Shown here: positions 2,301 through 51,455 of the stretch, piece by piece
How the letters are laid out: each line of letters starts with the position of its first letter
Numbering within the stretch: position 1 is the first letter of the stretch
Source: Fragilaria crotonensis
Lineage: Eukaryota > Bacillariophyta > Fragilariophyceae > Fragilariales > Fragilariaceae
Assembly (NCBI GenBank): GCA_022925895.1
Contig: JAKSYS010000013.1
Coordinates: 1 to 64,000, forward strand
Direction of reading: 5' to 3'
DNA: 64,000 nucleotides
Position numbers and translations under genes: made by a program
Notes under the pieces: generated by a model
Told to the model about the DNA's origin: nothing
The model's input: only the letters and a program-made list of their open reading frames with translations
The model's database searches: none

Positions 2301-2324
2301 CATCTAAGGGTGCCAAAACTAAGT
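2301..2324 (+). repeat. E1 left terminal inverted repeat
   Basis: Begins CATCTAAGGGTGCCAAAAC and is the reverse complement of 14102-14125 with one mismatch over 24 bases. It starts exactly where similarity to the older transposon E0 stops. Confidence 0.75.
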
Positions 2325-2370
2325 ACCATAGTTGATACAAGAATTTTTTATCATATTTATTGGAAAAATT

Positions 2371-2520
2371 TCAGGATTCCCATATTTAGTTCAGGATTCC
2401 TGAAGTTTTTTTCTGGTTTATTTATTTAGTTCAGGATTCCGACATTTGCTGTTTCCTCATTTTTATGAAGAATTTTTTTTGCTCCTGAACTACTGCAGTA
2501 TTATTCCTGAGCTTTTTTCT
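2371..2520. repeat. E1 left subterminal repeats
   Basis: At least three copies of the word TTCAGGATTCC occur at about 2371, 2387 and 2430, followed by reversed versions (TCCTGAAC, TTCCTGAG) near 2483-2513. The same core recurs at the right end (13760-13980). Clustered subterminal words of this type are usual transposase-binding sites in large DNA transposons; binding itself is inferred. Confidence 0.6.
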
Positions 2521-3360
2521 TCATTATTTCGATGCACATAAAACACCGAGTACTGTACGTGTTTTGTACGAAATACTGGAGTAGCATGGTGTATCGTGGG
2601 TGGACTATTGGTTGTGCCGTACAGTGTACAGTATACAGCGGTTTTACAGTGCTGTCAGCTGGGATACTACCGTCGTACTAGCGCAATGGTTCGTTGTTGG
2701 TTATACGCTGTACATTGTACGTTGTACAAGTAGCTATGGGCGTGTCTGGTGCATGGTGCATGGTGTTCGGTGCCTGCTACAGTACGTTTAGTATGGTGCG
2801 GTGGTGTACAGTATGGTAGCTACGGCGTGGTCTGTGTGTATGGTAGTGTGGTACTGTGTACGGTACTTTCATTACTATAGCGCTGTGTTTTGTGTACTAC
2901 GGTATGGTGGTAGCGTATAATTTTAGTACAGTATTGTATCATGCGAGTACTCCTATGACACTATGCTACGTACTACGTGATCTTGTGTTTTCAACAACAA
3001 ACCGTAGAATTGTAGGCGATAGTATGTACTGATTAATTCTTTGGCACCAATACCAGTGCATGCTGTATATTTCTACAAGGAATTAATTCTTTTCAGCCAC
3101 AGTATTGTCTTTAGTAGAATCGTACGTGATTTTTTGCGGGAAGTGTCACATCTCACACTTCGTTCGTTGAGCACTCCACCACTTGGTGTCATGCCCGACA
3201 CCACATTGATGCTCCATTATTTGGCATCTTCGCTCCTTCTTCGTCCTTTCCCACCCACAAGACATTGCAGTCTTAAGTGGTAAGACTGCAAATGTGCTTT
3301 TTTCGTGTTGATTGTTGTGTTGATTGAATGTTTCCATCATGGTGATGGTCGAATGAGTTT

Positions 3361-4110
3361 TGAGGTACTCCTGTTGTGCCAGTACCGTTGTCTACGTACG
3401 GTGCTCAGGGTGCAGTCAAGTACTGGGACGAGTTCGCACGACAGTACCTTGAGGTTACGGTGATACACTACGTCGCGCCTGTACAGTCGTCTACCTACCG
3501 TACTTAGGGTGCTGCCAAGTACTGGGAGTACGACAGTACCTTGGAGGCTACGGTAATACACTACGTCGCGCCTGTACCGTGGTCTACGTACCGTACTTAT
3601 GGTACTGCCAAGTACTGGGAATACGACAGTACCTTGAGGCTACGGTACAACACTACCTTGTGCATGTACTGTTGTCTACGTACTGTACTCATGTTGCTAT
3701 CAAGTACTGGGAGTATGACAGTACCTTGGTGGACGCCACGGTTTATTACAATACTACCTTGTGCCTGCTGTACGGTTGTCGATGTCACAACTTGGTGTCA
3801 TGCCCAACACCGCATTGAATGTTTCATTCTGTGCTTGTCCCCTTGCCCTTTGCTTCTTCTTCCTTTCCACTAACAAGGGCACTTAACTGTCGTTCTTGTT
3901 CGTGAGTTTTTGATTGTTTTGTCCTATCAACACAAGAATGTTGTGTTGAATCGTCGTTTCCATCATTGTGAGCAACTGATTGATTTGTTGAGGTACTCCA
4001 GTTGTGCCTGTCAATGGTACTGTACTCATGGTACTGTCAAGTACTGGGACGAGTTCGCACCACGACAGTACCTTGGAGGCTTCCGTACAACATTGTGCTG
4101 GTACTGTACT
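3361..4110. repeat. Tandem repeat array of about 93-99 bp units in E1
   Basis: The word CAAGTACTGGGA recurs at 3417, 3516, 3609, 3701 and 4038, followed each time by ACAGTACCTTG and a TACGTACCGTACT-like stretch. The first four are in tandem. The fifth follows a second copy of a longer flanking block: 3170-3350 resembles 3785-3990, both with CTTGGTGTCATGCCC-ACACC and a pyrimidine-rich stretch. This suggests a higher-order duplication of roughly 0.6 kb. The rest of 2520-4350 is AT- and GTAC-rich and contains no gene that I can see. Confidence 0.75.
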
Positions 4111-4979
4111 CCAGTCTTTCTTGTTGACGTTGTGTCATTGCACATGATTGTATTTTCCAGCTTTCAATCTCACATCCTCCTCTTCTTCTCCTTTCATAAT
4201 TAGGATCCTTGTCGACAAGTGTTGTGCTTCTCATTTTGTTGTTAATTGAGGGAATAAGTACTTCGTCTTGTGTGCGTGCTTCGATTGAGTTTGTAAGGCA
4301 ATCTGTCATCTAGAATCCAATATTCGGTCATCTGCGAGAGATTCTCATTGATTTGAGTGAATCAAACCAGATTGATCTACCGGTATTGGTTCTTTTTGTC
4401 AGTTGTCTGTTCGCATGCTCAAGAGTTGTATACACGCACACCAGTTGGAGGATTATTCATATTTCAACCAACAAAATGGCAGAGGTTCCATCACTGTCCC
4501 CTGTCTCGTCAGCAAGGAGGAGTCCCTATGGATAAGGCGTACCTGTTCCGTGATGGTATGGATGAATTCACACCACCTCCAGGAACAAAGGTCAATAAAC
4601 AATTCAGATCGCAAGTTCGAGTCTTTTATCATCACCCGCCGTGCTGTTTCAGAGTTTCCACTACACATGTTCAGCTCTTGGTTTCAAGACCTCCCGTTGT
4701 CCAAGATTATGACTCAGAACGAAAGAGAGGACTCCAATGAAATTTGGCAATTCAAGGTAGTTACGTTGTACCCCACACGTGTCCAAACAAACAAAGCTGA
4801 GGCGACAAGGTTTAAGTGGGCGACAGAAGCTGCAAGGCAATTCTACAGCACATCATTCAATTCTACAGAAGCTGATTTGAGCTCTATCGATCGTGCTGTG
4901 AATTCTGATCCATCAATAATGATTGTGGGACGTCCTCTTGAAAAGAAGATGACCCCTTCAAGAAATCTGTCATAGGGTG

Positions 4980-5602
4980 CCAAGACTCTGTTGTTATTGC
5001 ATGCATTACATTTCAAGTGGAATTGGAGATGAAGTTGGTGCGCGTTGGTGCTTTGGCTGTTGATTGCAGAATCTGAATCACGGAAGCCATCCGGTCTTAC
5101 ATCCTGGAGACGGCAAGGGTTTGGACGTCTGATGTTAGTAATGCTCATCAAGCATTCAACTTTTTTATTATTGTCTCACCGTGAGCTGTCACAATGTCAG
5201 GAGAGCCTACATGGTGTGGACATCTACTTGCAGTGTCCCCATGACGAGCCAAAGGAATTCTACCAAGCCTGTGGGTTCCGTCAAATCAATCTCCAAGACA
5301 CAACTGGCATTGAGTTTCTTCCCAAGACAATTGCCGACACCTTAATGGACGAGACCACAGGTGGATTTGCATGGATTGTACCAGAGTCTGAGGAGCACTG
5401 CATTATCCCTCTGATGAAACTTTCTTCCGGTTCCCTTTTGAACAGTGCTGCTAACAGTGCTGCTGTCGAGGTTGTTGAAAGCAACAGTGATGTGATCAGT
5501 GCAACAAGAAATGATGGTTCCCCGCGTGCTGTTGTTGAGTCAGAGGAAGAAAGCAAGATCAATATAGTCGCAAAATCGAGTGGTGGTTCCCCTTCCTCGT
5601 GA
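4980..5602 (+). other. GNAT-like acetyltransferase segment of E1
   Basis: Two adjacent frames give the usual GNAT elements. A beta-strand pair (around ACITFQVE and MKLVRVGALAV, 4995-5060) is followed by the acetyl-CoA pyrophosphate-binding signature RRQGFGRLM (about 5110-5140, matching R/Q-x-x-G-x-G/A). A later strand then leads into FYQACGFRQIN (about 5255-5290), the typical C-terminal 'F-Y-x-x-x-G-F' motif. After it comes a Ser-rich acidic tail up to 5602. The substrate is unknown; GNAT proteins acetylate proteins, polyamines or small molecules. The segment sits directly before the Ulp1-like domain, and a GNAT fold in the same position occurs in E2 (31900-32160). The frame changes once near 5080. 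Confidence 0.6.
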
Positions 5603-6165
5603 GCAGTGATGTTTTGGAGATTGTGCAGAGCAACAATGAGACAGTCAGTGCACGGAATGATGGTAGCAACACCAGAAAAACATTTGTATGGTGCCAATAC
5701 CCTTCATCAACAATCGATCTCCAAGATGATGTTGCAAGTGGAGCATTGCTGACAAATGCAGATCTGGAAGAGGCATTTACCGGTCTGGACTATTTGAACA
5801 ACCTTCTTCCACCACCATTTGGTGACCTGGTTCTGCCTGACCAGTTGCGTGGTTTTGGAGAAATGGGATCACAGGAAAGGCTTGATCATAGCAAAAGTGG
5901 TGGGAAAACTTGATGGCCACCCGTGAGCTGCAAATGATGACTTCACTCCTCATGAGGGATGGTATCACACATCAGTTGCAATCCTGTCTTTGACGACATG
6001 CAGGTAATTCAAGGTTGCTTTGCACGTCTTCAACGTCATCTATCTGCAAAGAAGTACGAAACGACTTGATGGTAGCCAATGGAGCCGATCATGCAGAATG
6101 TCTTGCCCTTGTGAAAAAGGTATGGAAGTTCTAAGGAAGAACTTTACCAGAAGTATGATGACCAA

Positions 6166-6813
6166 ATGAATCGTGTTGTGAAGGAAGTCCTGTTGTTCTA
6201 TCCAGGGCTTCTGCAGAAAAGGTTGATTGTGTTTCCTACGAATCTCAGCAACGATCATTGGGGGCAACATTTGTTTTCAATGCTGGAGACGTTGTGGCTG
6301 CCACGGATGATGTATCATGCCTCCGGACATGTTTTTTCGCTATTGCAGTCTTCATCCCTCCGGCACGAAAAATTCCAAACAATGTCGGTGTTGTCTGGTT
6401 CCTGAACCTTGCCTTCAGTTACCAGGAGCAAAGGAAAACAGTGCAAATGATAGCAGCACTCCAAACAAGATGAAGTGGCTCAGTCCGTTCGGACGAACCT
6501 TTTTGGGCAAATGAAGGGCACCAATACATTCCCTGCATTGAGGGTGTTGGATAATGATGTTCTTCCCCTGCAAGAAGATGGCCATAGCTGTGGGATTGGG
6601 ATTATAGCTGCAATTGCAATAATTCTCCGAGATATCATTGGGACTCAAGATGGAGTTGCAGCGCACAACGAAATGTTTAGACGCGATCGCATGGAAATCC
6701 AGATGTCAACTGATGTGAAATCGAAGGAGCACATTTGCTGTTTTCCACAGGAATATTCACAAAACTGTTTAAAAGGGATGATTCGGCTTCCATTTCCTAC
6801 TTGCATGCGATGA
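6166..6813 (+). other. Ulp1-like (C48) cysteine protease segment of E1
   Basis: The block around 6230-6265 reads IVFPTNLSNDHWG, the typical Ulp1 histidine motif (N-x-x-HW). At 6560-6610 PLQEDGHSCGIGIIAA supplies the conserved Gln and the Cys nucleophile of the Q-x-D-x-x-x-CG motif. An acidic residue lies between them, but the frame changes near 6260 and again near 6475, so the Asp cannot be fixed. C48 proteases cleave SUMO or related ubiquitin-like tags, and Ulp1 domains are known passengers in several eukaryotic DNA transposons (for example KDZ elements and Kaonashi-type MULEs). Positions 6614-6813 continue with an unrecognised basic segment. Confidence 0.65.
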
Positions 6814-6892
6814 AAGCACAGTGGTTTTTGCTGTTTGATCGCATTGCAGAATTTCAACACGTCACAGTCCCAAACGTCAGAATTCAAATCAT

Positions 6893-7778
6893 TTGATGGA
6901 TCCCTGTTACGGAAGTCTGAAGTTGGAACTTCAGACTTTCACGTGGCCCTGGGTGCCAGTACCATCCAATGCCACAGAGGACGACAGTGTTACGTTGGAG
7001 GATGTTTCTTCCAGGGAGGATGTTTTGCCAAATGCCAATGAACGGAGTTTGCCATCAGAGGAGGATGTTGCCGATTTCAAACCATCTGGATCTGCTGATG
7101 GACCTGAACAACAGGAAGAAGATATTGATCTCAACGAAGCCTGGTGGAATGATCCTGCTAAGCTTCCCGAGCAAGCAGGGTATGGAAAGGTGGGCCTCGT
7201 ACGTATGGTTATGGAGACATTCATGTACCTGATGAATGCCCGAAATTACCTTTCGGAGAAAGTAGGTACAAAACATTGGTATCAGACAATGAAGTTGAGA
7301 AATTTAGAAAAAGTGGCGAAAGAAAGGAGATGACGGTGAAGATCGACCAGTGCTTCTTAGGGATGAAGCAGCAATGAACAAATTCGTGGAGGACAGATTT
7401 TTGTACTGGGGTTGGAGCTCTACCAAAGATCACATGAAGAATGTGGAAAAGAAGGGCCGAGATGCAAAGAAAATTGATGGATGTAAGAAGAAAAAGACAA
7501 AGGATGATTACAGAGAGCAGTACACGAAAGAAATAAAGTTTATGAAGAAGGAAAGGAAGAAATTCAAAAGGGCATTTGAATTGAATGGACATTTGGCACT
7601 GAGGCCATGGTGCATGGCCTCAAGTACAACCCACGTGAAGATACCTTTGTTGCACTTTTGGTTTACAATGTTAAGACAAAAGAAGGAAAGTTGGAAAAGA
7701 AGGAAGAAAAATTGCTGTTTCCAAAGACTGGATCAAGGATGCCGATTATGCAAAAGGGGTAATCCAACATGTCATTAA
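6893..7778 (+). other. Acidic linker and Lys-rich coiled segment of E1 cassette
   Basis: Positions 6893-7330 encode an acidic stretch (many Glu/Asp, ending LNEAWWNDP), followed by a basic end. Positions 7350-7780 encode a helix-forming, strongly Lys-rich segment. The same succession is seen in E2, with an Asp/Asn-rich acidic tract followed by an Arg/Gln-rich helical segment. No enzymatic motif is visible. These may be linkers or protein- or DNA-binding tails. Confidence 0.5.
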
Positions 7779-7943
7779 CGTTGGAAACACGGATGGATTT
7801 GTACCTGTTCCTGAAGGGGAAACCATCCTCATTCATACTAAAAGGTACATAAGCTGCGATACGTTCCCACAGACACAATGGGTGTTTGATCCTCAGTCGA
7901 AAAGGTCCTTAAGGAGCAACAGTGACTCACCAGGGGTAAACAT

Positions 7944-8567
7944 ATGAAGCAGATACAGGCCCCTGGTTACTGGGAGGTCATCTTTCATGGAGAAACACAG
8001 CCCATTCGAACTGATGAAGACTTTGTGAAACAATTTAAGACAGGATTCTTGGAGGAGGTCAAGCGTATGAGGTGTGGATTTGTTGACATACCAGTGGGCG
8101 ATTTCAAAGAATCACATTTGCATGAATATCCCAAGCTGCAGGTTCCTGAAGCACCCCAGGTCCACTTTGTACAATCCGAAGGTGAAGATCTTTGTGTTTC
8201 AAAGTCATTGGCCAGTGCTTTATATGCAATTGGATTTGATAATGCTGCCAAATCCATTAACCATTTTGGTGAAAGTCACCTAAGAGGAGGTACTGTTGAT
8301 GCCATTCGAAAGGTGGGACAGTTTGCTGAAACTCAGCTGCCTACATGGATCACCCGACAAGTTCTGAAGAGACCACACATGTTTGATTGGCAACTCCTTC
8401 AAGAACAAATGAAGGACACAATGGTATTGGCTGTGCTCAATGAATCCGATGGAAATGGTTCACATGCAGTTACCATTCACAGTGGGTATGTGTATGATGC
8501 AAATGAAGTGGTTGCAATTCCTCTCTGCAAGGAGGCCTTGATTATTGCTGCTCAACCTCAACTGTGA
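7944..8567 (+). CDS. Papain-fold-like cysteine protease domain of E1 cassette
   Basis: This is an uninterrupted reading frame of 207 residues. About residue 85-95 lies LCVSKSLASALYAIG, a Cys at the start of a helix as in papain-like and C39-like enzymes. Near residue 175-190, GSHAVTIH is followed by YVYDANE, placing a His and a D-A-N in adjacent strands as the expected partners. The same pattern recurs in E2 (about 35850-36170), where SHAITVH and IFDSNE are kept, which suggests the residues matter. I infer a protease or a related thiol-transfer fold; no named family can be fixed by eye. It starts 170 bases after the Lys-rich segment and ends four bases into the next short frame. Confidence 0.5.
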   Translation: MKQIQAPGYWEVIFHGETQPIRTDEDFVKQFKTGFLEEVKRMRCGFVDIPVGDFKESHLHEYPKLQVPEAPQVHFVQSEGEDLCVSKSLASALYAIGFDNAAKSINHFGESHLRGGTVDAIRKVGQFAETQLPTWITRQVLKRPHMFDWQLLQEQMKDTMVLAVLNESDGNGSHAVTIHSGYVYDANEVVAIPLCKEALIIAAQPQL

Positions 8568-8767
8568 AGAATGAGTTTGTGAGCTTTCGGAAGGCAACTC
8601 TCTTTTTTTATGATGGCCCAGACATCAACAGGAAGGCAAGTTTTACTCTTTGGGTAGATTCAAACAAGCGAAAGCGAGCCGATGGTGATGGTCCAAAGAT
8701 TGTGAGGGCTCGGACAGACGATGGCAACATGTTTCCTTTAGGTACTTTGATGCAACAAGCTAGCTAA
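8564..8767 (+). other. C-terminal tail segment of E1 cassette
   Basis: A 67-residue frame overlaps the stop of the papain-like domain by four bases. It has aromatic beta-rich sequence (ATLFFYDGP, SFTLWVD) followed by a basic KRKRADGDG stretch. It is probably the end of the same protein after a small shift. It stops at 8767, tail to tail with the minus-strand transposase gene. Confidence 0.4.
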
Positions 8768-11700
8768 GCGAATTTGGATGCCCACTCTGTATATGGTTTT
8801 GTCTCAAGAACTGTGGAACTGTTGTGTGAGATGGATATAACAAAACAAGGGGCCACGACAGTGTTTCCAGAGACAAGGTGGTATGTTGGAGACCACTTCC
8901 ACTCCCTCAACAGTGTTGACTCGTGTTCTTTAATTTCTTCTGTTGTTGATTGAACAACCAGTTGGTATCTCTCGTCCGGATCCGTGGGTGAGTCAACAAC
9001 AACTACAAGAGCCAAACGACAGGGAAACTTCCCATGTTCCCCAAAGTCAATTATCATCCAGTCATGTATGGGACCATCGGACTGATAGCAGGGATGACAT
9101 CGAAAGGTGTGGACATCTCGTTTGTATTCAGTACAAAATGTTATTGAGTCGGATTCCTTAAAGGAATCAAAAGAAACTCAATCAACTCCAGGGAAGAGCA
9201 AGTAAATCACGGTGAGTTCTGGTGTCCCATTCAATTTTGTACTGAATTTGTTTACTCGATTTGAATCGATAAACACAGCCAAATGTTGCTTGTCCGGTGC
9301 TCTGAAAGATTCCATTCCTTGTTGTTTCATCATCATGGTGGCTGTCGGGTACATCAGCATCACCATCTGGTTGCTCCCATATGCGCGTGTGTATGGTGTC
9401 GATCATGAAGGAGTACATTAAACGTTGGGCTGCCTGAAGTTCATATGCAGAACCCTCAATTCGCTTCTGTGCCCGTCTCCCAGGGTGCTTTGCAGCAGGA
9501 ATTAGAAGTGATTCTGGACGCTGTGCACAAAAGTTCACTGGAGAGCCAAACCGAGACATATCATCCACAATGTGTAACAACTCATGGAATTTCGGAAACT
9601 TCCATGCATCCTCGGCATTGCTTTTCTGTCCTTCCTTCCTTATGATGGTTCCCTTTTTCTTACCCTTTTTCTTGTCATCCTCCTTTCCTCAACTTTCAAG
9701 GGAATGGACTGTTTGCACATATCCATGAAATTGCGAATGGAATCCTGATGTTTCTTCATTTCATTTGCAACATGTGCTGGATTTGTAGTCTCCCAGTAAT
9801 GACTCTGGTTTAGCCAAGCATCGAAACAAAGGAGAGATTCAAGTACTTCAAGGACCTCAGGAACCTTCTTAGTTGTTCTTTCTCAAGACATGTTTGATCA
9901 TTTGCCATCCTGCTTCATATTGGAAGAGGATGACAAACAAAAACGAGGCCAACGCGTTCTGATGCAGTTATCTTTGTCAAATTTGTTACCCCATTGCTGA
10001 AATCTGTTGATGGATACTCCTTTCGGTAGGTTTGGCGATGAGACTTGTGAAATGCTATTGCAAGGTCATCAAAGGCAGCCTTCTTGGATGCTGGAAGACT
10101 GTCCAATATAAGTTTTGTTACTTTCTCGATGACACCTTTCCGAAATGCATGCATTGTCTCCACAGGAGTGGCCCCAAAGATTCCACGCTCAGGGTCAGCA
10201 AAGGCAATGTGTTCAAATGCATTTTCAAGTTTATGTTGAGACCATCGTTTCCTGAGATCATCATCATTACTCCTGGCAATGAAACCCATATCCGAGGCTA
10301 CCAGGTATTTGCAATGGACATCACAGTTCTTCAGATCATCATAATTGACATCACAGCACCGATGAGGGCGTTGATTCCACTGGTGTGAACACCATACCGA
10401 CCACACAGCATATCTCCTTCTTGCATATCTTGAATGATGAACAACACACATGTGACAATGTCGACACAGATTCTACCCTTTGGACCAATTGGCAAATGAA
10501 CACCACACAGTTGTGGTGAACATTTCCGAAAGGTCTCCAATACAGCATCCAGCTCCTTATGATAGATACGAATGGCATCGCCCATACGAAGTGTCTGCTT
10601 CTGAGCTGATGAGGACTTCCTCTTGGGAGAAAGCCATGATAGCCCCATGCCTTGATACTCCTTCTGAATTTTTCTGTAAAATGGCTGGAGTGAACATGTA
10701 GGGTTTAAGTGAAAAGCGATCATTCCCTGTTACAGAGGTACGATCAATCCATTGGATGATTGGAACAAACAATTGCTTCTGAGGATCTGTGATTAATCGA
10801 TCATACGCCTTGCGATAGACACTCCGGACAGTGCCTCACCCAAAACATTGCTGCCTTTCAATTTGTGGTAGGGCTTCAGGGGATCATTGATATCGATGGC
10901 AAGGTTTTCTGCAGTCATAATGCTTGGATTTTGCAGCAAACTTAGCAACTGTGAAGCGAAGTCAAAACAAATCACATCTGATGGAGAGCCATGATGTACA
11001 TCCACTCTTCGTACAAAGGGAAGCAGTCTTTTCCCATTACGAACTGAGTTGATCAGGGCATCAACATTTTGGCACGCGAGAGTCCACCCACTGGGTTGTA
11101 AGAATAATTATCAGCAGATGCAGAGCGTGCCCACTCCAGGACTTGACCAAAAGTGTAGTCGGGTGCATTGGCATGGTCCAGGATTTTGAGGAGAGAAACA
11201 GTCCACTTCTGATCGGTAGTATACATGAAGTTTGAACGAAATGATGGGGCTTCCACATCTTCATCAAGTGCAGAATTCGTACAGGTAAGAATGTTTGGGT
11301 CATCACTTAACATGGACAAATCATCACTTTTGTTGCAGTCCTCGATGTCCTCACAAGAAGTGCTTTCAACTTCCACACCATTGCCAGCCGGAAACTGCAG
11401 AAGGTTGTCTGTGCCATCAAAATCCATGTGGGGATCATTCACCATATGTCGCCTTAAAAGGGCAGGCCTCTTGTTACTTGTGCATGTGATATTCCCATCC
11501 TCATGAAGACGGCGACGGTGTGAAGCAGAAGCCCCATGTGTTGCTGCATGGTGTGATTTCTTCACAATGAAATTATAACACCCGATGTTTCTATCAATAT
11601 GCTGTGTATATGCTGCTTGATTGGAAAAGGGTTTCTTGTTGAAATTCAGGCAGAAGGGGTTTTGACAGAAGAGCAGGGGTGCCTTTGAGGAAGCAGACGA

Positions 11701-11796
11701 GGACAACATTTTGAAGAGAAGGTTTTGAAGAAAGGGTTTTGAAGAGGACGAGTGAAGTGAAAATGAGGTGTTGAAATTGACAGGACACAGATTCAC
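8764..11796 (-). pseudogene. Zinc-finger transposase-like gene of E1 (Plavaka/KDZ-like)
   Basis: This minus-strand gene is read in about five pieces. The first (11796-11053, 247 residues; a second Met at 11709) contains a C2H2-like finger: two Cys around CQNPFC and a His-x-Cys end in YTQHIDRNIGCYNF. An acidic linker and FTFGQVLEWARS-like helices follow. The middle pieces (10723-9915) contain GATPVETMHAFRKGV, which resembles the D-x-x-H-x-x-x-x-G block after the second catalytic acid of Plavaka, CACTA and KDZ transposases. They also contain a FHKSHRQTYRKEYP-DF-NGVTNLT block that I recall from many diatom repeats. The piece at 9580-9182 has MLHIVDDMSRFGSP and CAQRPESLLIPAAKHPGRRA, like the C-terminal 'H-x-x-x-D-x-x-FGSP...E...K' part of these enzymes. 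It likely mobilised E1. Several frame breaks are visible; some could be introns. Confidence 0.6.
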
Positions 11797-11893
11797 TAAA
11801 CAGAAGTTCGAAAGCGTGCATTCAAATTGTACATTTACTTTACATTTTTGGTGTATGTAAAGAATGAAGGGGGGTGTGGTATGAATTCAAAAT

Positions 11894-13566
11894 TTGAAAA
11901 CCCTGCATGAATGTGTAGAACCTACATACCAACTCGGTACTTGGTATGAAATTCAAATGGTGGCAAAAAAGACTATCCCACAAACAGGATTTTCAGTGTT
12001 CAAAATTTGGCGCACAATCGGAAAGTTTTTCACACAACAAGGAAGCACCACAAATACAACCATGGCATCAATGGCACACCAAACAGCAGCAGGCATGACT
12101 GCCTTAAAGCCCAGCTCTAGGAAACAAAGGAGAGACTTCATAAGAGGCGTGAAACGAGTGACCACAGATCCCAATGATCTGATTCAAAGTGACAACGAGG
12201 AGGAGGAGGAGGAAGAAGTGCCACGGAAAATGGATGCAAAACTAGGACAGAAGCATGCATACGGAAATCCACCATCCCTACCTTCAACTATTAAAGTCGG
12301 GAAATCAAGTGACAGCCAACTAACATCATCGGTTCCAGGGCTAAGCAGCATAGTGGACATGAGCATGACGGAAAATACAGAAGAGAATCAAATCAGTGTG
12401 ATCAAGACTTGCATCAAAAACACGTGTTCTCTATTTGGAAGTTCTATCAAAAGACTATCATTCTCATTTCAGTGAAGATGAGAAAACACTTTGTGGCTTT
12501 ATCATGAAGCACACAAACATTCGAGGAACCGAAAACTGGTGGCTTGGGATGCGGAGAATAGTTGTAAAACACACACTGATCTTCGAACAATGCAATAAAA
12601 ACATGCAAACGAAATTCAAAGGTGAGGAATTGAAGTGAGTGTACTTTGCCAAAGCCCGAGCATACTCACACTCACTTGCATTCAACATCAAACACCTTGC
12701 ATCCAGAGGGATTCACTTCCAATTTAGGAACGTATGAACACAGCCTATACAGTGGAAGCGAGGAAGAAACCAGTTACCTCCTCAAGATGAGGGATAATAT
12801 CTGCTACTATGCCCAAATCATAGACACCTATGCCCCATGCATTGTCGGCAGCAGCAAGTGGAATAACACTATCAACATGGAGAACCACTGTGCAACAACT
12901 GACAGAAAAGTATGGAGCAAGAAAATCCTGTCCATAAGTGATGAAGCATTCATTTTGCTGTGCCTGATCAACTATGGGAAGAGGTGGTTCGCGGAATTAG
13001 TTAAGACAGAGAAAATGGTAAGTTTATCCGAATGGTTTGTCACAGAACAAACAACAAGAAACTGACTTGTTTTGTTATCACTTGTTGGAAACAGCGAATT
13101 GGTACATGGACTGATGAGGACAACAACAACCTACCCGTAAGTTACACTATGATACTAAATGAAATGAAAAACCACATCCTAACTTCTGACCAATCTTTGC
13201 AATACCATGTTCGCAGCCACCACTTTACACATTCTCCAGGAACAAGGGTGCTCATGATAATGGGGAGGCTGTGGTTGGTCACAGGTGGGAATGAGGAAAT
13301 ACGATGAATTATACATGGCCATCAAGAATGATAGAAAGAAATCAACCACCCCAACATTCAACCAGGAACTACTTAAAATGTTTCTGTCCAGAAGGAAAAA
13401 GGAGTCTGGCCGGGGGGTCAGGAAACAATTTGATGACAAGGGTAAGAAACGCCCACACAAGTGCATTGATGTATTTGACGAGGACTCTGATGAGGAGGAT
13501 GATAACTACTCCAGTCATCTTGCTCCTGAACTTGTCTACAGTGAATTGAAAGTGGAGGCAGTTTAG
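11894..13566 (+). CDS. Spliced accessory gene of E1
   Basis: This plus-strand gene diverges from the transposase gene, with about 100 bases between them. The N-terminal part (11894-12475) carries an acidic run (about residues 95-105). The later part encodes ...YGKRWFAELVKTEKM, RIGTWTDEDNNNLP and GMRKYDELYMAIKND, ending in a basic segment and an acidic tail. Two canonical introns join these in frame: 13018-13094 (GTAAGT...ACAG) and 13137-13284 (GTAAGT...ACAG). A third, 12622-12706 (GTGAGG...CCAG), would also keep the frame. The join before 12480 is unresolved: a weak splice or a frameshift. WTDEDNNNLP is reminiscent of a SANT/Myb-type start ('W-T-x-E-D/E') but the rest of the fold is not evident. 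I do not recognise the family; a DNA-binding partner of the transposase is a reasonable guess. Confidence 0.55.
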
Positions 13567-13759
13567 AATAGATCAGACACTTAGTAATGAATAGTAGAAT
13601 GGTTCATCAAAGCCACACGAATAGGCACAATTAAAACTAATCTCCAACAAAAGTTAAAATGAGCGACAATAACATCTATTATATGAACAATGTCAGCTCA
13701 GAACTACTGAGGTGATTACTTCATACACACTACACAGCAAACTTCTTCTTTTCGAATAT

Positions 13760-13990
13760 CTAATTCAGGAATTGAAATTCATGATCACAAATGAAGAAGT
13801 GGTATAGTTCATATATTTAGAGTCCAAGAGTTCAGGAATCCCACCCGAGTGTTAGTAAAATGAGTCAGTGAAATTCAGGAATTGAAATTTTGGAGCTCAG
13901 GAATGCAAAGTATGAGCTCCTATGCAAGAGATGAAAAGTTCAGGAAACATAAATTTCAGAGTTCAGGAATACGAGGAAACCCGCTTCATA
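13760..13990. repeat. E1 right subterminal repeats
   Basis: The word TTCAGGAAT or TTCAGGAA recurs at about 13765, 13829, 13873, 13899 (as CTCAGGAAT), 13938 and 13959. It matches the core of the left-end words at 2371-2440. Between this cluster and the right inverted repeat there is only AT-rich sequence. Confidence 0.6.
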
Positions 13991-14101
13991 CACATGATGT
14001 ACAAGCTCTTTAGTCCTAAGTTTTTACCTATATTTTAGGTAAAAATTATGAACAAAAAATTCTCATATCAAAGATAATTGGTTTTTCATATCCAAGAGCC
14101 G

Positions 14102-14125
14102 ACTTGGTTTTGGCACCCTTAGATG
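14102..14125 (-). repeat. E1 right terminal inverted repeat
   Basis: This is the reverse complement of 2301-2324 apart from one base. The 260 bases from here to 14386 hold nothing that I can recognise. Confidence 0.75.
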
Positions 14126-14386
14126 TAGATTTCTACTGAAAAATTTGTACCATGTACTTTTCTACCGCAAATGCTACGTCAGTACGAGGATTAAAAAATA
14201 AATATATACGATTACTTTTGAAAATACAGTACGACAATATCTGAGTTATTTTAGGTATATATAATAATGTTAAAAGCATTACAGATCGCACTTTTCACAA
14301 TTTTTTAGGTGTTGTTTTTTGTTCTGATATGGCGTCTCAACATTTTGTCGTCTTTTTTGTCGCACGGAATTTTCACACCGGGGTTA

Positions 14387-16579: not shown

Positions 16580-17990
16580 TCATCGCACAGGTAGAGGTGT
16601 CGGTCGCGTCACACCAATTGATGCAATGTAGGAGTGTAACTGATCTCTCGGAAGTGGTACTCCAGCATTTTCACTGACGTAGTTGTAACGTCGCTGCCTA
16701 TTGTACCGACCAGTGACGCCACCAATGTCGTCAAAATGGTTGCCACCATCCAGCAATTGTTCGGGTATGACGTCGTTGGGACTGGAGGATGGATCCCCTG
16801 TTGCAACCAAGGGTACACCACCATTGACTTCAGTCAGCCACTCATCACTCGCTGTGTGAGTCAGATCAGAATTGCCATCCTCGGCATCAATACAGTAGTT
16901 ATGGAGCTTTGCGAGTGCGAGTACTAGCGCAACAGTCTTGTGTACCGTAACATTCATCGGTATCGCACTTCGTAAGATTGCCCATCTATGTGTCAACATA
17001 CCAAATGTGCATTCAATACGAATTCGCAATTGGGAGTGATAAAAGTTGTATGAATCCTTTGTTCCACCAGAAACAGCTGCATACGGTGTTGCCATGTACG
17101 GTGTGTTCAAGTATGCATTGTCTCCAAACAGGCACAGTCCCGGAGCTAAAATGCCATCTTCAAGTTTGTTGAACAGTGACATTCCTTCGAATGCAAGACA
17201 ATCTGATGTCGATCCCGGGTACTGGATTGATATGTCCAGAATCCGTCCCCGAACATCACAGACTGCTTGACAATTCAGTCCAAACTTCTTCTTCCTTGTA
17301 CAGTGAAATTTGCCGGGCTACACCCAGAGCGTTCGCAATCTCTTGGTGATGGCTTGTGCGTCCAAATTAGAATACCATCTACTGCCCCTGCACAGCACCT
17401 GAAACCCGCACTTGAAACGTCGTAGAAGCCTTGGGCTATTGCTCGCTGCTCATCATGATTGTCGGGGTACACAATCTTAAACTTTGGATGTCTGTTGATG
17501 GCATCCACAACATACCACCAGCTGTTAGTTGTGTCGGTGTGACCAATACCGTAGGTGGTCATTATATCATAGACGGAGCCACCAGCAAACCAACGAATGG
17601 CACAAGCAAGTCGGACATCTGGCGAAATTGGTCCATTAGGAATGTATCAGGCTCCACCTTCTGACCAGATGCCTGGATGATGTAGGGACGAAGCTCATTT
17701 GCGAGACTCGTGAACGTTCGGTACTTCATTCTATATGCCCTCCTGAAGTAGACTTTTCCAAGCTCTTTGTAAATGTCTCGAACTGACCTGCGCTTGCGTT
17801 GCTGAAATACACGTCCAGGGACAGATCCCTTTTTTGTCCTTCGTGTCCGCAATCGACGCCGTCGAATCGCAACATCAACGACGACAGCAGCCACATTCGC
17901 AACGACGTTTGCGACAGACGACAAATACTCTAAATCATTTGCATACGACATTTGCTGTCTCCGCCGGGGGCTGGCAGTCATCATCGTCAT
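16580..17990 (-). pseudogene. Harbinger DDE_4-type transposase, frameshifted
   Basis: Three consecutive minus-strand frames add up to a full transposase. The N-terminal part (17990-17562) is basic and contains FRRAYRMKYRTFTSLANEL, the helix-turn-helix-like region. The middle (17562-17275) has AVDGILIWT with the first catalytic Asp, then the start of the Cys/Lys block (FHCTRKKKFGLN across the next shift). The last part (17182-16580) has GDNAYLNTPY with the second Asp and RIECTFGMLTHRWAIL with the catalytic Glu. All three acids of the DDE triad are therefore still present, but frames shift near 17630 and near 17310, so no full-length enzyme can be made. It faces the accessory gene tail to tail. 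Confidence 0.88.
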
Positions 17991-26495: not shown

Positions 26496-27899
26496 TCACA
26501 CGTTTGGTGGGTGTTGTCGATTTCGCGTCCCTGGCCATTGCACTTCTGATTTTGAAAAGGCAATGTCAAAATGCTGAACGAGCTTGCTTCGGAAGTAGGA
26601 TAACGAAAGGTTCTTGACAACCCTTACCCTTGAGCGACCATCACTTTCATAAATCCGTTCTTGCCTTGACCGCTGCTGGTTTCCGTGCCGGTCAGAATTA
26701 TTGATAAAGCTATTGTTGTGCACATGTTCGTTGTATGTAGGAGTAGGTAGTACTACATGTGATGAGGCATCGTACCTTCGAAGTTCACTTGGTGTAAACA
26801 GTCGCCTGATCCCTTCTGGCAAATGATCATTCACATCATTCATGTCATGAAGACCAAGATTTCCTTCCCAGATGGATGAGGCGCCATTTTCCCATCCTCT
26901 ATCAAGGCCATCTACCTCAAGGAGCATGTTGTGTAGTGCACAACAGGTCAAAAATATCTTGTCGCCCGCTTCCTGTCTACCTAAGCGAATACCAGTCTTC
27001 AACACTCGAAATCGGCCTTTGAGGATTCCAAAAGTGCATTCTACGTCCTTTCTGACTGATTCTAACCACTTAGAAAACCGAATCTCGGTGCGACGGCATG
27101 ATGTCTTTATGGGCGGTACCGTTGTTGGCCAGTTTAGATAGCCATTGTCTACTATTACCCATGCTCCCTTGTATTTGACTCTCACAATGGTGCCATCGGC
27201 AGCCCTTTCATACAGTTCAAACTCAGCATCATCCAATACAGTACCTTCCGACAAGGCGACGACAAAGCTGTCAAACAAGACAAGGGTCTTGTCGTTCCAC
27301 CTTGCTGGGTGACCTGTTGTTGTGGCAAGGATCCGTCGTCGGTTGTTCACTGTGATGTTGTATGTTCTTGCAGTGTGCGAAGTTTTGAAGCCGAGGTGAC
27401 TCTGCCTCAGTCGGTATTCTATCTTCTCAAACACAATGTGAGTGGCATCACAAGAGCCAACACAACCAGGAAGTCCCACCCTTGAGTACTCCTCTGTGTG
27501 AATTGCAGCATCGTCGGCAGTTCTCGGAGCAATTACATACAGTTGGTACAGCTTGGTACTACCGTAAGTGATGAAGGCATGAAAGAACACACGAATAACT
27601 TCTTCGCTAATTCCTGTATTCTCGGACAGGTCGTCAAAGGTCCAACCGCGACCAAGATAACGTAGAGCACATAGGATGAGGAGGGGGAGAGGAGTTGCCG
27701 GTTGGCGGGCAACATCAATGGCACCCGCTTTCCACCTCTTGAACAAAGGTTCGTCTTCGGCAAGGGCAGCCAATGCCTTGAAGCTTCCGTAAGGCATTCG
27801 AAAGCGGCGGCGAAAGACTTTGTTAAATCTTGGATTGTCAAGATGAGGATTCTCGACGTACATGTTATACCTGGTAGGAGTACGTACATCATGTGTCAC
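26496..27899 (-). CDS. Harbinger DDE_4-type transposase, full length
   Basis: This is a 467-residue open frame. The N-terminal part (VFRRRFRMPYGSFKALAAL) is the helical DNA-binding region. LPLLILCALRYLGRG and FDDLSENTGISEEVIRVFF form the helix-turn-helix block. The catalytic part has VGSCDATHIVF (first Asp), VIVDNGYLNWPTT (second Asp) and RKDVECTFGILKGRFRVLK (Glu), the usual PIF/Harbinger triad, and then CCALHNMLLEVDG. All three acids are present and no stop interrupts them. The Met at 27899 sits just after a possible 3' splice site, and an upstream open stretch (28380-28015) may be a first exon ending at GTAAGA (28017-28012), but the splice I tried does not keep frame. It cuts and pastes the element together with the accessory protein. 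Confidence 0.92.
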   Translation of the reverse strand: MTHDVRTPTRYNMYVENPHLDNPRFNKVFRRRFRMPYGSFKALAALAEDEPLFKRWKAGAIDVARQPATPLPLLILCALRYLGRGWTFDDLSENTGISEEVIRVFFHAFITYGSTKLYQLYVIAPRTADDAAIHTEEYSRVGLPGCVGSCDATHIVFEKIEYRLRQSHLGFKTSHTARTYNITVNNRRRILATTTGHPARWNDKTLVLFDSFVVALSEGTVLDDAEFELYERAADGTIVRVKYKGAWVIVDNGYLNWPTTVPPIKTSCRRTEIRFSKWLESVRKDVECTFGILKGRFRVLKTGIRLGRQEAGDKIFLTCCALHNMLLEVDGLDRGWENGASSIWEGNLGLHDMNDVNDHLPEGIRRLFTPSELRRYDASSHVVLPTPTYNEHVHNNSFINNSDRHGNQQRSRQERIYESDGRSRVRVVKNLSLSYFRSKLVQHFDIAFSKSEVQWPGTRNRQHPPNV

Positions 27900-28014
27900 C
27901 GTGGGCAGGTGTCGAGGACAAGACAGCAGACAAGTACATGCAGAGAAAGGATGACAACAAGAAGAAATGAGATCACATCAAAAGTTAGGGATGCAATGAT
28001 GTTGAAGACGAATT

Positions 28015-31503: not shown

Positions 31504-33492
31504 GTGCCTACCCTTGAAGACATGACGCGTCTATTGAGAGCCACCTTGGAAGACATGTCAACTACTGATGAACTGCGCCAGACAGTGACAAACTTCTTCG
31601 ACTGCACTGATGGTTTAGCCAAATTGCCATATAAACTGTGGCGCATCTGGCATCCTTGTAGCGATGCATTGCCGGCTTGGCTGCACAGTTGCGATGTCTA
31701 TCACATTGCCAAGCAAAGATTTCCACCATTGCACCATGTGCTGCACGTGCCAGCAAGCAATGCAATCGAAACCTCACTGATCTCTTCTGTGCATGCATTG
31801 TATCATTCCATTGCCGCCGAATGTGCTGACGACAGCTTGGTATGTTCCAAACTGCTTTCAACGTGTCACACGTTAGTTGTGGCATATCCAGATGACACAG
31901 CAACAACACGCAAAGCTGTGGCAGCCATATCGTTTGTTCTGCACCATCCTACCGTTGTGATCATGTATGTTGGTGTTGACGAGGAGTTCCGCGCTGGTGG
32001 TTTAGGCATATTGCTATTACTCCTTGCCGGCAAATGTTGCATTCCTCCCCTGCAAAAGGTTGTCACTTGTGCAATGATGGTCCGGGTGCATACAGAAGGC
32101 CACACAGAAGCCCGCCGCTTCTTTGAAAATCGCGGATTCAAACTAAGCACAGTTACCTCTGCCAACAGAGGCATGCCCCGGTCCGTCGCAGAAATTGTCA
32201 ATAGCACCCCATGGATGAAGCCACATGTCATGAATGACACTAACGACAACGCTGCTGATGCTGATGCTGATGCTGATGCTGCTGATGTCGATGCTGACGT
32301 CAATGCACCATCCGAATGGTTGTGGTTGGAGTTGCCGGCGTATTGCAAACTCCGCCAGGGAGCAGCGCTGTCCAACTCATATGCTTTGTTGCCGCCAGGG
32401 TGCGTCAAAGCATTCATTCCTTCAAACCAAATTGACCAAGCATGTTTCTGTGCCTTGGTATCACATACAATGACTAATGCTCAAGTCAATTGGTGTGTAA
32501 ACGGGCTTTTGTTGTGGGATCAAGACTGCTTCAAGGACAGTTTGGCATCATCGCAGGATGCACCTGTTTGTTGGCATTACCCATGTCAATTGTCGTGGCG
32601 TGAACGCCTGCAATTGCGGGGACAGTGTCCATTAACGCCAGCCGTTATGATGCTACTGCTTAGCTGCATGATGCGCAATGCCACAATGCCTCTGGCAGGA
32701 ACACATGTTTATTGTTTCACCAATTGTTTTGCGGCATGCACACCGCATGCAAACATTGTTTCAACAGTATTACAAACTACCGCTGCTTTGCAACGTGACG
32801 ACAACACAGCACCTCACTTTCATGCAGTATTGGACACAGATAAGTTTTTAAGCGCTGCTGTTGTCATGGCGTACATTCGCGAGCAGGCAGCATTTTTGGC
32901 CCGTCCATCGGTGTGTGCAGTTTGTCAAGAAGTGGATGGTAACTGGACATGTCTGATGATGCTCAACACATCACATTATCAGTCTAAAACACAACCACAG
33001 CACGGTGCGCCTGTGTGTGGTTTTGTATATTTTGATCCATGTGCGGAGGGTGCGGAATATGATGCTGCATCCATTCATCCATCCAATCCAACTTTGTTCA
33101 TTATGACCATGGCCAAAGCATTGCAAAGCACCACAACGGCTTCCTCAAATCTTGATATGCCTTTCAACGACATGAAATCATTTCAAACTTGGTATGCTTC
33201 CAGCCCGCATAAATTTGGAAATGGGATTTCCTCACACGCAACTTCGTGGTTTAATGGTAATGACTCATTCGTGCAAATCCAACTTCCGGTTAATTATCCA
33301 TTGCGGTGTGATGTTGTGAACGCAGCATTTCAGTCGGGATGGATGTGTCTTTTGTTTGTTGTTGATTGGTGTGTCATGGTTGGCACGCAGCGTTTTGAAT
33401 GGCAACACAAAGGCAATGTTAAACCCGTTATGCCAAAAGATGGCTTGTGGCGTTTTCCAATACCAAAGACATTTGGCATGGGACAATTTTAA
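31504..33492 (+). CDS. E2 cassette protein: GNAT-like domain plus protease-like domain
   Basis: This is an uninterrupted frame of about 662 residues. Residues 125-230 look like a GNAT fold: strand VVIMYVGVD, then EEFRAGGLGILLLLL (the R-x-x-G-x-G acetyl-CoA motif), a strand VTCAMMVRVHTEG and EARRFFENRGFKLS. A run of Asp-Ala repeats (residues 250-266) acts as a hinge. The C-terminal half has the layout of a Ulp1-like protease (GNWTCLMMLNTS, then VYFDPC, then PLRCDVVNAAF), but the usual HW is NW and the Gln is not evident, so activity is doubtful. The same succession GNAT then Ulp1-like then acidic then papain-like occurs in E1 (4403-8767), and this copy is the better preserved for the first two domains. 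The start at 31504 is a TTG; the first ATG is at 31522 (ATGACGCGT). Confidence 0.6.
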   Translation: MPTLEDMTRLLRATLEDMSTTDELRQTVTNFFDCTDGLAKLPYKLWRIWHPCSDALPAWLHSCDVYHIAKQRFPPLHHVLHVPASNAIETSLISSVHALYHSIAAECADDSLVCSKLLSTCHTLVVAYPDDTATTRKAVAAISFVLHHPTVVIMYVGVDEEFRAGGLGILLLLLAGKCCIPPLQKVVTCAMMVRVHTEGHTEARRFFENRGFKLSTVTSANRGMPRSVAEIVNSTPWMKPHVMNDTNDNAADADADADAADVDADVNAPSEWLWLELPAYCKLRQGAALSNSYALLPPGCVKAFIPSNQIDQACFCALVSHTMTNAQVNWCVNGLLLWDQDCFKDSLASSQDAPVCWHYPCQLSWRERLQLRGQCPLTPAVMMLLLSCMMRNATMPLAGTHVYCFTNCFAACTPHANIVSTVLQTTAALQRDDNTAPHFHAVLDTDKFLSAAVVMAYIREQAAFLARPSVCAVCQEVDGNWTCLMMLNTSHYQSKTQPQHGAPVCGFVYFDPCAEGAEYDAASIHPSNPTLFIMTMAKALQSTTTASSNLDMPFNDMKSFQTWYASSPHKFGNGISSHATSWFNGNDSFVQIQLPVNYPLRCDVVNAAFQSGWMCLLFVVDWCVMVGTQRFEWQHKGNVKPVMPKDGLWRFPIPKTFGMGQF

Positions 33493-33494
33493 GC

Positions 33495-36345
33495 AAAAAG
33501 GTAGGCTTACAACTGCGTCGCAGTCCGGCAAGTCGCAAAACAACCAGCAGTACAACTGCATACCTACCGATCGCGTCGGATGTGGAAGCCTTATGTGTGC
33601 AATCAATCATTGCGCTCTGTGATCGCCTGATGTTTTTTTCAGGACGCAGCACAGAATGTGTTCGACAACAGCCTTACTATACCAAGTATCTGAAGCCGCC
33701 TGCGCATGCAACAAATAACTTCGTTAACAAAATGAAAGAAAATACAATCATTGTCGATCAGTCTGGTTTTGGCAACTGGACATCACAGTTGCAAACAAAG
33801 TAATGCGGACAACGCTGCAAACATGTTGTTGTCGTTAAGCATGAAACCAAAGTGCAGAGACTATTTCCGAACATGACGATGCAAAGCCACCGGCAATCAC
33901 AATCATTGCGGTTGAACAGTCAGGGACAACTGATCTAAAAAGCAAAGATAACAAGCAACACAAAGCTAAGCGGAGCAAAAGCAGCAACAGTGTTCAGGAC
34001 AACAGAAATGCAGCGGAACATCAACATGCAGTTGAGAGTGAAAATGATGTCAACAACGATGGCAAGAACAATAATGATGATGAGAACGTCGACGATAGCA
34101 ATGCAGAGGACGGTAAGCATGACAACAACAGGGATGCTGAGAACAGTGACGCGTATGATCAAGATGCAAAGAACAGCGCCAAAGCCAACAGCGATGCAGA
34201 AGGCAGTAACGACGACGACAGCAATACTGCGAACAGTGATGAAGACAACCGAAATGCAGCAAACGACAACGATGGCACAAACAATGATGATGATATCATC
34301 GACGACAGCGATGTAGAGGACAGTAACGACGACAACAACCGAGATGAGGCAAGCAGTGACGTGTATGACCAAGAAGCAGAGAACAGCGACAAACACAACA
34401 GCGATGCAGATGATAGTTTTGACGATGACAGCAAAGCCAAAGACTGAGGGTAGCAGAGGACATGCAAATGTCAGTGACAATGACGACAGCAAGAAAGAAG
34501 AGAATGCTGAATACAACAGCGATGCCGAGAAGAGTGATGACGACGATGAACATTCAGAAGACAGTAATGATGCAAATAACAATAGCGGGAGCAGTGTTGA
34601 CACAAACAACGATGCAACTACGGACTTTGCAGAGGAGGTGCCAGCGGTAAACATGGGTCAATTGGCACCAATAACAGGAGCCATTGGCATGCAACGCAAG
34701 CGTCGACGTGGTGCGACGCGCTTGCCGGCCAGCAAGTCCATCAAACTCACCCCAGAAGAACTGGAGTATCATGCACAAAGCTACGCGAACTTCAGCGACA
34801 AGAAACGTTGCGCAAAATGACAAATCATGACTGTTGCGCAGCCAACAAATGTCGACGGCCTGGTGGTTCAACAAAGCTTGATCCGGACGATGTAGCACGT
34901 GGATGCGACCAGTCATGTAGTCGCTGTGAGATGCTTGGGCATTACATATGCATGCAAAGGCGCAGCAAGAAGCTGTACTGTTTGCTTTGTCTTAGAGTGT
35001 CAAACTGGAGCACCACAGCCGCGGGCGCCTCCGAAAGCTGTAACAGCAGGTCTGAAATCCCGCATGCTTCGATCGCATGTTCTCAATCACCAATTGCCAT
35101 GGAATTCCACATTGCAAAGATGAAATGAATCATGTTATTGCTCACGCCATGCAACGGCTCAATTATAAGTCATGGGCGGAAATGCGGACTATGGTAGCTA
35201 AGCAAAATCGTGCCAATGCCACTGCGCGCCGCCTGTGGCAGACATGGACGGAGGAACGTCGTGCCCAACATAAGCAAAACCGAAACCAAGTGGCCGCAGA
35301 ACGACTTGAGTATGTCAAGGCATACCGTGCATTGCAAAGGAGTATTACGAACTACGCCAAGTGTTATTCCTGATCTTCGTTACGACAAGGTTAAAAAACT
35401 ATTCATTGGACGACAGAATGGAAGTCGGATGATAATGGCCGCACGCTGATTAAACAGGAGGTGGATTATCTGCACGCTTTGTGCAACGTCATTTTCCTTT
35501 GCGTGTTGTTAAGTATGTGCGACGAGTGTCGTTAATGTCAAGAAGCAACTTTGTTCCTGTGCCAAAGCTTGACTTTATCTTTGGATGTGCGTGTCATTAC
35601 ACATGCAAATGGCAACCTGTCACACAGTCGGACGTACCTGAATGTGTTTTGGTAAATATTCAGATCAAACGCAGGATCAATGACTCCGACAGAGGTCCAA
35701 TCAATGTTTGGTGCAAAATATGTTGCGATTTTGCGACAATCAGCTGGACATGGATTCATCCACATCCCACCAGGTCAAGCAAAATGCGAAAGTTTGGAAG
35801 AGGCTCCGTACATACAGAATGGTGCAAGCAGCTCGCTATACGTTACCCACAAGGACATTTGGCCACTTGTGTTTTCTCTGGATTTGCCTCGGCATTGTGG
35901 GCAGTGGGTTTGGAGGAATGCAATGCTGGTCAAGGCAGCGGCACCGTGCACTATGGATGATCCATCAGTGTTAGCACAGCTGGCAAGTTAATTTCCAGTA
36001 CGCCAGGTTGGCTGCTGCCACACAAAATCAAACACGCAGCAACGTTTGATCTGTTACGCGCAAATTTGACTGGGGCATTGGCAGTTGTAATTCTCAAAGC
36101 CTCCGATGGCACATCAAGTCACGCTATTACAGTGCATGACAATGTGATCTTTGACAGCAACGAAAAAACAGCATTGTCCATTGTGTCAAGCAAACTTGAA
36201 TTATTTGTGCTCTACGCAAACACGGCAAGCCAATTACCATGGTGTCGATGGCTGGATATTTGTTTTCGAACATGGCGTGAAAGTTGAAGGAAAGCCACTT
36301 GAGAAGGTCCTTCAACACTTCAACACCCTTCTGGCTGTGTATTAA
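33495..36345 (+). pseudogene. E2 cassette, downstream part: acidic repeats, Cys cluster, helical segment, papain-like domain
   Basis: This reads on from the previous gene in several frames. Positions 33970-34620 encode an Asp/Asn/Ser-rich acidic tract that contains two diverged copies of the same roughly 70-residue unit (each with YDQ-A-NS). Positions 34650-34990 give a basic block (KRRRGATRLPASKS) and a Cys cluster (CCAANKC, CDQSCSRCEMLGHYIC, CLLC) that could bind zinc. Positions 35130-35373 give an Arg/Gln-rich helix. Positions 35690-36190 give the papain-like domain: ATCVFSGFASALWAVG with the Cys, then TSSHAITVH and IFDSNEKTAL with the His and Asn. This matches E1 (LCVSKSLASALYAIG, GSHAVTIH, VYDANE). 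About five frame changes are visible. The DIRS-like element begins 45 bases after the last frame. Confidence 0.55.
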
Positions 36346-49629: not shown

Positions 49630-50090
49630 AATTACCGAATCGGAGTGAAAAAAGTTCGAATAGATCTGGTACCCTTGATTGCCAAGTCTCTCACTCTCTT
49701 GATGCTTTCCTGCATGGTCGGACCATGAATTCGCAACCAGTTCTTGTTGTGTCTCGTAGGCTGCGATAAATGTAAGTTCATATCTTCGGTAGCAACTCCT
49801 GGACGCGTGGTTCCATTTGAAGTCTGAGATCGTGGAATTTTCTGACTCGCTCGAGACCAGGTCGCGCTGATTTGTCGCCGAAGTCGCTTGTCGGCGCCGT
49901 GAATGTCTTGATTCCTCATGGACCAGAGTAGGAACCATTGGTTCCAGACGAATTTAATCAGATTAATTTGCCACCGCTGCCCTGTCATGACCTTGGTTCT
50001 GACAGCTGAACCTAGTTGAGAATACCACCTTTCCTGATATTGGCTCCACTTGATTCCGAACCGGCCGTTAAATATTTGCCTCCAACCGAT
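49630..50090 (-). pseudogene. Reversed LINE C-terminal fragment
   Basis: On the minus strand this reads SIGWRQIFNGRFGIKWSQYQ, WNQWFLLWSMRNQDIHG and later TRHNKNWLRIHGP. It aligns with the C-terminal tail of copy A (LIGWHQLLLGYLSKRWRLL, then LWLGQNETLHAQ). It is therefore a diverged relative. It lies between the two minisatellite parts and is open in frame with the minisatellite on its 5' side. Confidence 0.7.
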
Positions 50091-51060: not shown

Positions 51061-51455
51061 TGGTTCATGGGTCGGAGCACGGAAATTTGTTTGATTGAGT
51101 TGTCGGCAACGCAGAAACATACCAGGTGCGATGTAGAAATGTAATATTTGAGGGAAAAGTGAAATCAATGTGGTTTGTTTTCTCTTCACCCTGTTGCTCT
51201 GTCGAATATGGCTTTGCAGGAACATCATTGCCTTTATCAGGTGGATATGGGACAATGGTCGAATCGAAACGAGGGGGGTTCGGGGAACCTCCCTTTCATG
51301 ACTGTTAGTGTGCTCTTAGAGTGTGTAGAAACGATACTAGAAAAACACGTAGGAGAAGGAACGGTGACAAAATTTACGGGACAACTTCCTATTCGGTGTA
51401 CGCAGATACGGTCGGCGGACAGAACGTATTGTGCGAAACTGAACTAGAAAATTGT

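Follow-up and report, generated by a model that had tools for sequence, protein, structure and literature searches.

A Plavaka-type DNA transposon of the diatom Fragilaria crotonensis and its putative multi-domain helper, ORF1

What kind of mobile DNA lies between the inverted 24-bp ends of an 11.8-kb stretch in the genome of the diatom Fragilaria crotonensis, and what might its genes do for it? The stretch occupies positions 2301 to 14125 of the window, that is, of the 64,000 nucleotides analysed here (positions 1 to 64,000 of contig JAKSYS010000013.1, assembly GCA_022925895.1, designated C55 below). An earlier note on this DNA had described a single mobile unit in which a transposase-like gene adjoins a cassette with GNAT-like (acetyltransferase), Ulp1-like and papain-like domains. 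The stretch is indeed one copy of a mobile DNA transposon whose insertion duplicates 2 bp of the target. In our best reading, it belongs to a known kind of transposon, and its putative multi-domain helper, encoded by open reading frame (ORF) 1, has not been found described. Feature coordinates are collected in Table 1.

The two ends are 96% complementary to each other, and within the window they alone match the 24-bp end at up to three mismatches (shuffles, 0.00). Across the genome searched (62 Mb, 881 contigs), the same threshold returned 120 matches (55 forward, 65 reverse), compared with none for the reversed control; a chance inverted repeat is ruled out by these results. Twenty-six copies were read, namely the window copy and 25 of 35 other inverted pairs, which were paired by eye among the matches listed, a part of the 120. 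Both ends carry CATCTAAGGG and the termini read CATCT..AGATG in 26/26 copies, all of which had been picked by these ends. A 2-bp direct target duplication flanks 23/26 copies, compared with 91/650 mismatched pairings, and 3-bp flank identity was seen in 0/26. The empty site of copy C427 is present in the window itself at 36583-36979, within a repeated ORF (398 aligned positions, 99.7%), where CG stands once, as opposed to twice at the filled site. Among the joined flanks of the 26 copies, an empty site was found for C427 alone in the sequence examined; a candidate for C136 was discarded, as the match was the copy's own flank. The single mobile unit of the earlier note is confirmed. A shared target duplication, for which that note had proposed a check, holds for the family and fails for the window copy (TG on the left, TA on the right), as well as for C69 and C402. 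Since the left and right flanks of the window copy were not seen joined elsewhere (best 40 of 108 candidates scored), a later rearrangement at one side of this copy is likely. Its right flank (14126-14375) opens with a repeat of about 145 bp that is present at many places, and its left flank has gene-like relatives elsewhere.

The internal organization likewise agrees with the description given before. The 11-base subterminal word TTCAGGAWTCC is found in one direction shared by the left and right ends, and the shorter TTCAGGA is concentrated in the two outer 400-bp stretches, which together hold eight on the plus strand and two on the minus strand, compared with zero and four in the inner 11.0 kb and five and six in the remaining 49.8 kb of the window. 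Three gene blocks are present within the element, and tandem units of about 92 bp occupy 3438-3732 in its 5' part.

The same ends and gene order recur in 13 other copies of 11.8-12.0 kb, with 98.3-99.3% identity to the window copy when insertions and deletions (indels) are counted. For C69 and C347, this identity covers the last 10 kb only and the 5' part differs; together with C703 and C327, they form a subfamily in which the first 1.9 kb is different and the remainder the same. A further copy, C548, is 90-93% identical. From element base 1910 onward, the mean substitution divergence among 14 copies is 0.16-0.54% (C548, C703 and C713 were excluded from the divergence, 1-bp indel and open-frame counts). 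The family is young and reflects a recent burst. As for intact frames, those of the window copy are interrupted, the transposase is intact in C361 (765 amino acids, aa), and ORF1 is whole in no copy read. The positions of the breaks vary from copy to copy, and many of them are probably assembly errors, because 1-bp indels are concentrated in homopolymer runs: 102/155 such sites fall in runs at least three bases long, which account for 18% of bases. Single-copy changes in ORF1 comprise 60 indels and 26 substitutions. True decay was rejected as the main cause on account of the homopolymer indels and this indel excess; some genuine decay is possible.

The transposase gene provides the classification. 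Plavaka elements are defined by a transposase with PF18759 (PMC8290104; here and below, cited papers are drawn on for the portions of their text available to us). This profile was recovered in the window's family through C361 (E 3.2e-10, 40.2 bits, Pfam cut-off 26.3), upholding the transposase-like gene of the earlier note, and above the same cut-off in the relatives L050 (46.9 bits) and L049 (36.1 bits). On the minus strand, every point tested across the transposase falls within a frame that stays open for 120 aa or more in one copy or another. In the alignment, whose DDE-type landmarks are conserved, a Cys/His cluster near the N-terminal end is followed by WIDRT, QDMQEGD, FHExxH and QRPES, which by our own assignment would correspond to the first D, the second D, H(3)H and the last E of the CMCT scheme. 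Members of that clade have C(2)C and H(3-4)H motifs between the second D and the last E (PMC12730594). FHExxH precedes QRPES in all three rows that reach the region; L049 and L051 retain C(2)C, which is replaced in the window's family and L050. PlavakaB elements of fungi, which belong to the CMCT clade, share the PF18759 transposase and have a 2- or 3-bp target duplication and CATCA..TGATG ends (PMC12730594). Here the duplication is 2 bp in 23/26 copies and at the empty site, and four of the five terminal bases agree, the fifth being different.

The other candidate groups fit less well. KDZ (Zisupton) elements, which the earlier note had named with some MULEs as known carriers of Ulp1, have an 8-bp target duplication (PMC12730594); KDZ membership was rejected on the 2 bp found here and the Pfam profile result. 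EnSpm families have CAC..GTG ends and a 3-bp duplication (PMC12730594), and the CATC..GATG ends and 2 bp of this element do not fit CACTA/EnSpm. MULE membership was rejected on the Pfam profile result and the 2-bp duplication. The idea of a polinton-like or viral element was rejected, as none of the viral families exceeded its Pfam cut-off and PHROGs matches were weak (best, an acetyltransferase, E 0.0011). Judged from its sequence, the element is thus a Plavaka-type, PlavakaB-like DNA transposon and not a KDZ element. One transposase relative was found outside this genome, at 5756-7381 of the IMG/VR contig L051 (about 50% identical). By eye, L051 is phage-like from the end of the match onward and therefore carries no information on ORF1; it is probably a chimaeric assembly.

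ORF1 corresponds to the plus-strand cassette. From about 4310 to 8740, open frames of 120 aa or longer, drawn from 14 copies, together cover all points tested; the longest open stretch in a single copy is 907 aa (C347). These frames probably join into one protein of about 1,480 aa. For its GNAT domain, support comes from the relative L050, which passes PF13673 (E 1.2e-5, 25.7 bits, cut-off 23.6), in line with the GNAT-like fold proposed before. L050 is the only protein that passes a GNAT model; within the window's family, C347 reaches 13.1 bits for PF13508 against a cut-off of 27.

For the two thiol-protease-like domains, the residue patterns stood and the folds were not recognised by profiles. 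Enzymes of the Ulp1/peptidase C48 group have the catalytic order His, Asp or Asn, Gln, Cys. In the Ulp1-like region, H, N, Q and C occur in this order in C347 and L050, the two rows that cover the domain, within the motifs HW, FLN and LPxQEDGxxCG; the L049 row reaches only Q and C. In papain-like (clan CA) peptidases, the order is Gln, Cys, His, Asn or Asp. The papain-like alignment covers five lineages, with 26-47% identity to the row of the window, and 28/210 of its columns are invariant. These columns include two His, three Asp, the sole conserved Cys and the sole Gln and Asn, with Q, C, H, D and N in papain order. Papain-like relatives were also sought in viral contigs, GTDB genomes and phages, and no lead was obtained. 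Both parts are motif-level proposals of putative thiol proteases.

The gene set recurs well beyond the young family. The papain-like domain has 95 genome matches, with identity down to 27%, which reduce to 72 places after removal of second pieces of the same copy. At 40/72 places, GNAT, Ulp1-like and transposase parts all lie within 9 kb of it, and the order GNAT, Ulp1-like, papain-like, transposase is kept in 40/40. Twenty of these complete places (of 47 divergent places) belong to divergent families, which carry the same set at 27-57% identity. No terminal repeats of the sister families were found in the stretches of relatives examined. One sister family includes a second, diverged relic in the window itself (31504-36345), with a 662-aa ORF that scores 18 bits for PF13508, below the cut-off; at about 35640-36236 lies its papain-like part, which is broken. 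The family also includes C317, C687 and C312. Comparison with C548 gives ratios of nonsynonymous to synonymous substitution rates (dN/dS) of 0.20 for the transposase, 0.26 for the papain-like, 0.44 for the Ulp1-like and 0.48 for the GNAT domain, and 0.39 for ORF1 residues 601-907. On this comparison, the transposase and the three ORF1 domains are under purifying selection.

A third gene and a class of shortened copies complete the family. Gene 3 has no Pfam match. In all seven of the 6.7-kb copies examined, both ends are retained, all three gene 3 frames find matches, and the large genes are reduced to about 100 aa of the N-terminal part of ORF1 and the first 285 aa or so of the transposase. 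The remainder of ORF1 and of the transposase, including the transposase core, is unmatched in these seven. The ends and gene 3 are thus kept with the large genes mostly gone, as in non-autonomous elements mobilised in trans, and the class is probably non-autonomous. Between full copies and six of the seven 6.7-kb copies, gene 3 has a dN/dS of 0.29-0.31 in its middle part and 0.64-0.97 in its outer parts. Because the deleted class retains it, gene 3 probably encodes a DNA-binding or cis-needed partner.

Table 1. Features of the transposon copy at 2301-14125 (window coordinates)
Feature	Position	Strand	Remarks
Whole transposon copy	2301..14125		11,825 bp; basis: 24-bp inverted ends and other copies
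Left terminal inverted repeat	2301..2324	+	starts CATCTAAGGG
Subterminal words TTCAGGAWTCC, three sites	2370..2440	+	element positions 70, 90, 130
ORF1, probably one frame of ~1,480 aa in the family	4310..8767	+	broken in window copy
GNAT-like domain region	4661..5446	+	match to L050 ORF1, 28%, E 1.4e-19; two stops inside
Ulp1-like region	6115..6813	+	two frames in window copy; 6502-6753 matches L050, 40%, E 6.9e-12
Papain-like region	7926..8564	+	open in window copy; 95 genome matches
Further C-terminal transposase part	8764..9177	-	other frame
Plavaka-type transposase gene	9185..11811	-	broken in window copy; basis: PF18759 in C361 and matches here
Gene 3, three frames common to several copies (probably exons)	11885..13566	+	kept in 6.7-kb copies
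Subterminal words TTCAGGAWTCC, two sites	13831..13972	+	element positions 11531, 11662
Right terminal inverted repeat	14102..14125	-	

Elsewhere in the window, two minus-strand transposase-like genes at 16580-17317 and 26496-27977 match PF13359 (DDE_Tnp_4), and 49632-51315 consists, by eye, of short repeats in which several frames of either strand are open. The genome also has further Plavaka-type and C48-type matches, for example on contigs C873 and C40, with both types on some contigs; these may be additional transposon families that possess a genuine C48 gene.

We favour, at even confidence, a young Plavaka-type transposon in which ORF1 is a multi-domain helper that raises the element's success. 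The transposase would bind the ends and the subterminal words, cut and paste the element, and mobilise the 6.7-kb class in trans. With less certainty, ORF1 would combine a GNAT and two thiol-protease-like domains on long linkers, most likely stripping the transposase, or silencing proteins located at the element, of ubiquitin- or SUMO-type tags while the GNAT domain acetylates targets there; ORF1 would be kept because it raises the success of the element. More tentatively, one polypeptide comprising an acetyltransferase and a pair of thiol proteases that remove tags, of which one represents an unlisted family, may edit acetyl and ubiquitin- or SUMO-type marks at the element and thereby let it escape silencing, as an old, dedicated helper in the Plavaka-like elements of this genome that acts in trans for deleted copies. 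Several observations weigh against a helper of this kind, besides the missing profile matches of the protease-like parts and the Asn in the sister relic that are described below. ORF1 is open along its whole length in none of the copies read, nor in L049 or L050, and three in-frame stops interrupt the parts of ORF1 that were compared in C548. Linker residues 131-360 have a dN/dS of 0.76 against C548, indicating low constraint. Single-sequence structure models were unusable for the GNAT part of the sister relic (predicted local distance difference test score, pLDDT, 37.7) and for the papain-like part (pLDDT 32.5). Furthermore, at 32/72 papain-like places the other three parts are not all present: 13 places have GNAT and Ulp1-like parts without a scored transposase, five Ulp1-like and transposase, three Ulp1-like only, three transposase only, one GNAT only and seven none. 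The transposase search scored only the best 59 of 551 candidates, so its absence at a place is weak evidence, and four of the seven places without other parts (C317, C687, C312 and window 35865) belong to the sister family described above, whose GNAT-bearing ORF was found with another query.

The protease-like domains could also be look-alikes or inactive, with ORF1 a structural or DNA-binding accessory protein that has a GNAT domain, which we regard as doubtful. Profile searches against C48 and papain-clan models, which the earlier note had suggested, matched neither region: PF02902 (C48) found 63 places in the genome and none on these copies, ORF1 proteins of the window's family and its relatives do not match it, and the Ulp1-like and papain-like parts matched no profile from Pfam or the PDB. 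At the position of the Ulp1-like His, the sister relic in the window has an aligned Asn. With catalytic-type residues kept and no profile match, both protease folds are unproven; against mere resemblance stand the invariant papain-like columns and the Ulp1 order in both rows covering that domain. It is unlikely that ORF1 is instead a polyprotein that its C-terminal, papain-like protease would process, releasing GNAT, Ulp1-like and coiled parts as subunits of the transposition complex that do not act on host tags. Such an arrangement would suit the fixed domain order and the presence of several domains per long frame, as at C449, where GNAT and Ulp1-like parts share one frame of 1,414 aa (the papain-like part lies downstream in another frame). 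However, Ulp1-type enzymes usually act on ubiquitin-like tags. Finally, captured cargo without a role for the element is very improbable. The 6.7-kb class does spread without most of ORF1, presumably on the proteins of other copies, but the identical set and order in divergent families and dN/dS values below 1 in the ORF1 domains speak against it.

Helper-like and non-autonomous features have parallels in other systems. The En/Spm and dSpm elements comprise autonomous and internally deleted copies with common ends, as in this family, except that an entire additional gene, gene 3, survives in the deleted copies here. Some PlavakaB elements carry an accessory enzyme gene, as here; theirs encodes a TET/JBP dioxygenase (PMC12730594), whereas the present element carries gene 3 and an ORF1 in which GNAT and protease-like parts are combined. 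Among other transposons, Ulp1 or OTU domains have been described in Ginger1, MULE and Helitron elements (PMC2836005), and a C48 peptidase is found in oomycete Cryptons, the CryptonS group of oomycetes and a diatom including some members with C48 (PMC3212892). What these elements have in common with our proposal is a thiol protease of ubiquitin or SUMO type. They differ in having other transposases or recombinases and in that their protease is C48 or OTU by profile, compared with motif only here; GNAT is not mentioned for them in the available portions of the two papers. In plants, VANDAL elements with the anti-silencing protein VANC offer a model for the accessory role proposed for ORF1. VANC binds DNA repeats and no enzyme domains are claimed for it in the text available (PMC10398659), and the likeness to ORF1 lies in the accessory role. 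In agreement with the earlier note, no described element with GNAT plus two thiol-protease-like domains was found in a literature search that covered mostly non-subscription papers, in the portions of text available.

Demethylating enzymes in fungal transposons and anti-silencing proteins in plant VANDALs are precedents for helpers of this kind, and the combination of a young family with matching deleted copies makes the idea testable. If it is true, acetylation and tag removal would be united in one deeply conserved helper, adding another route by which transposons get past host control.

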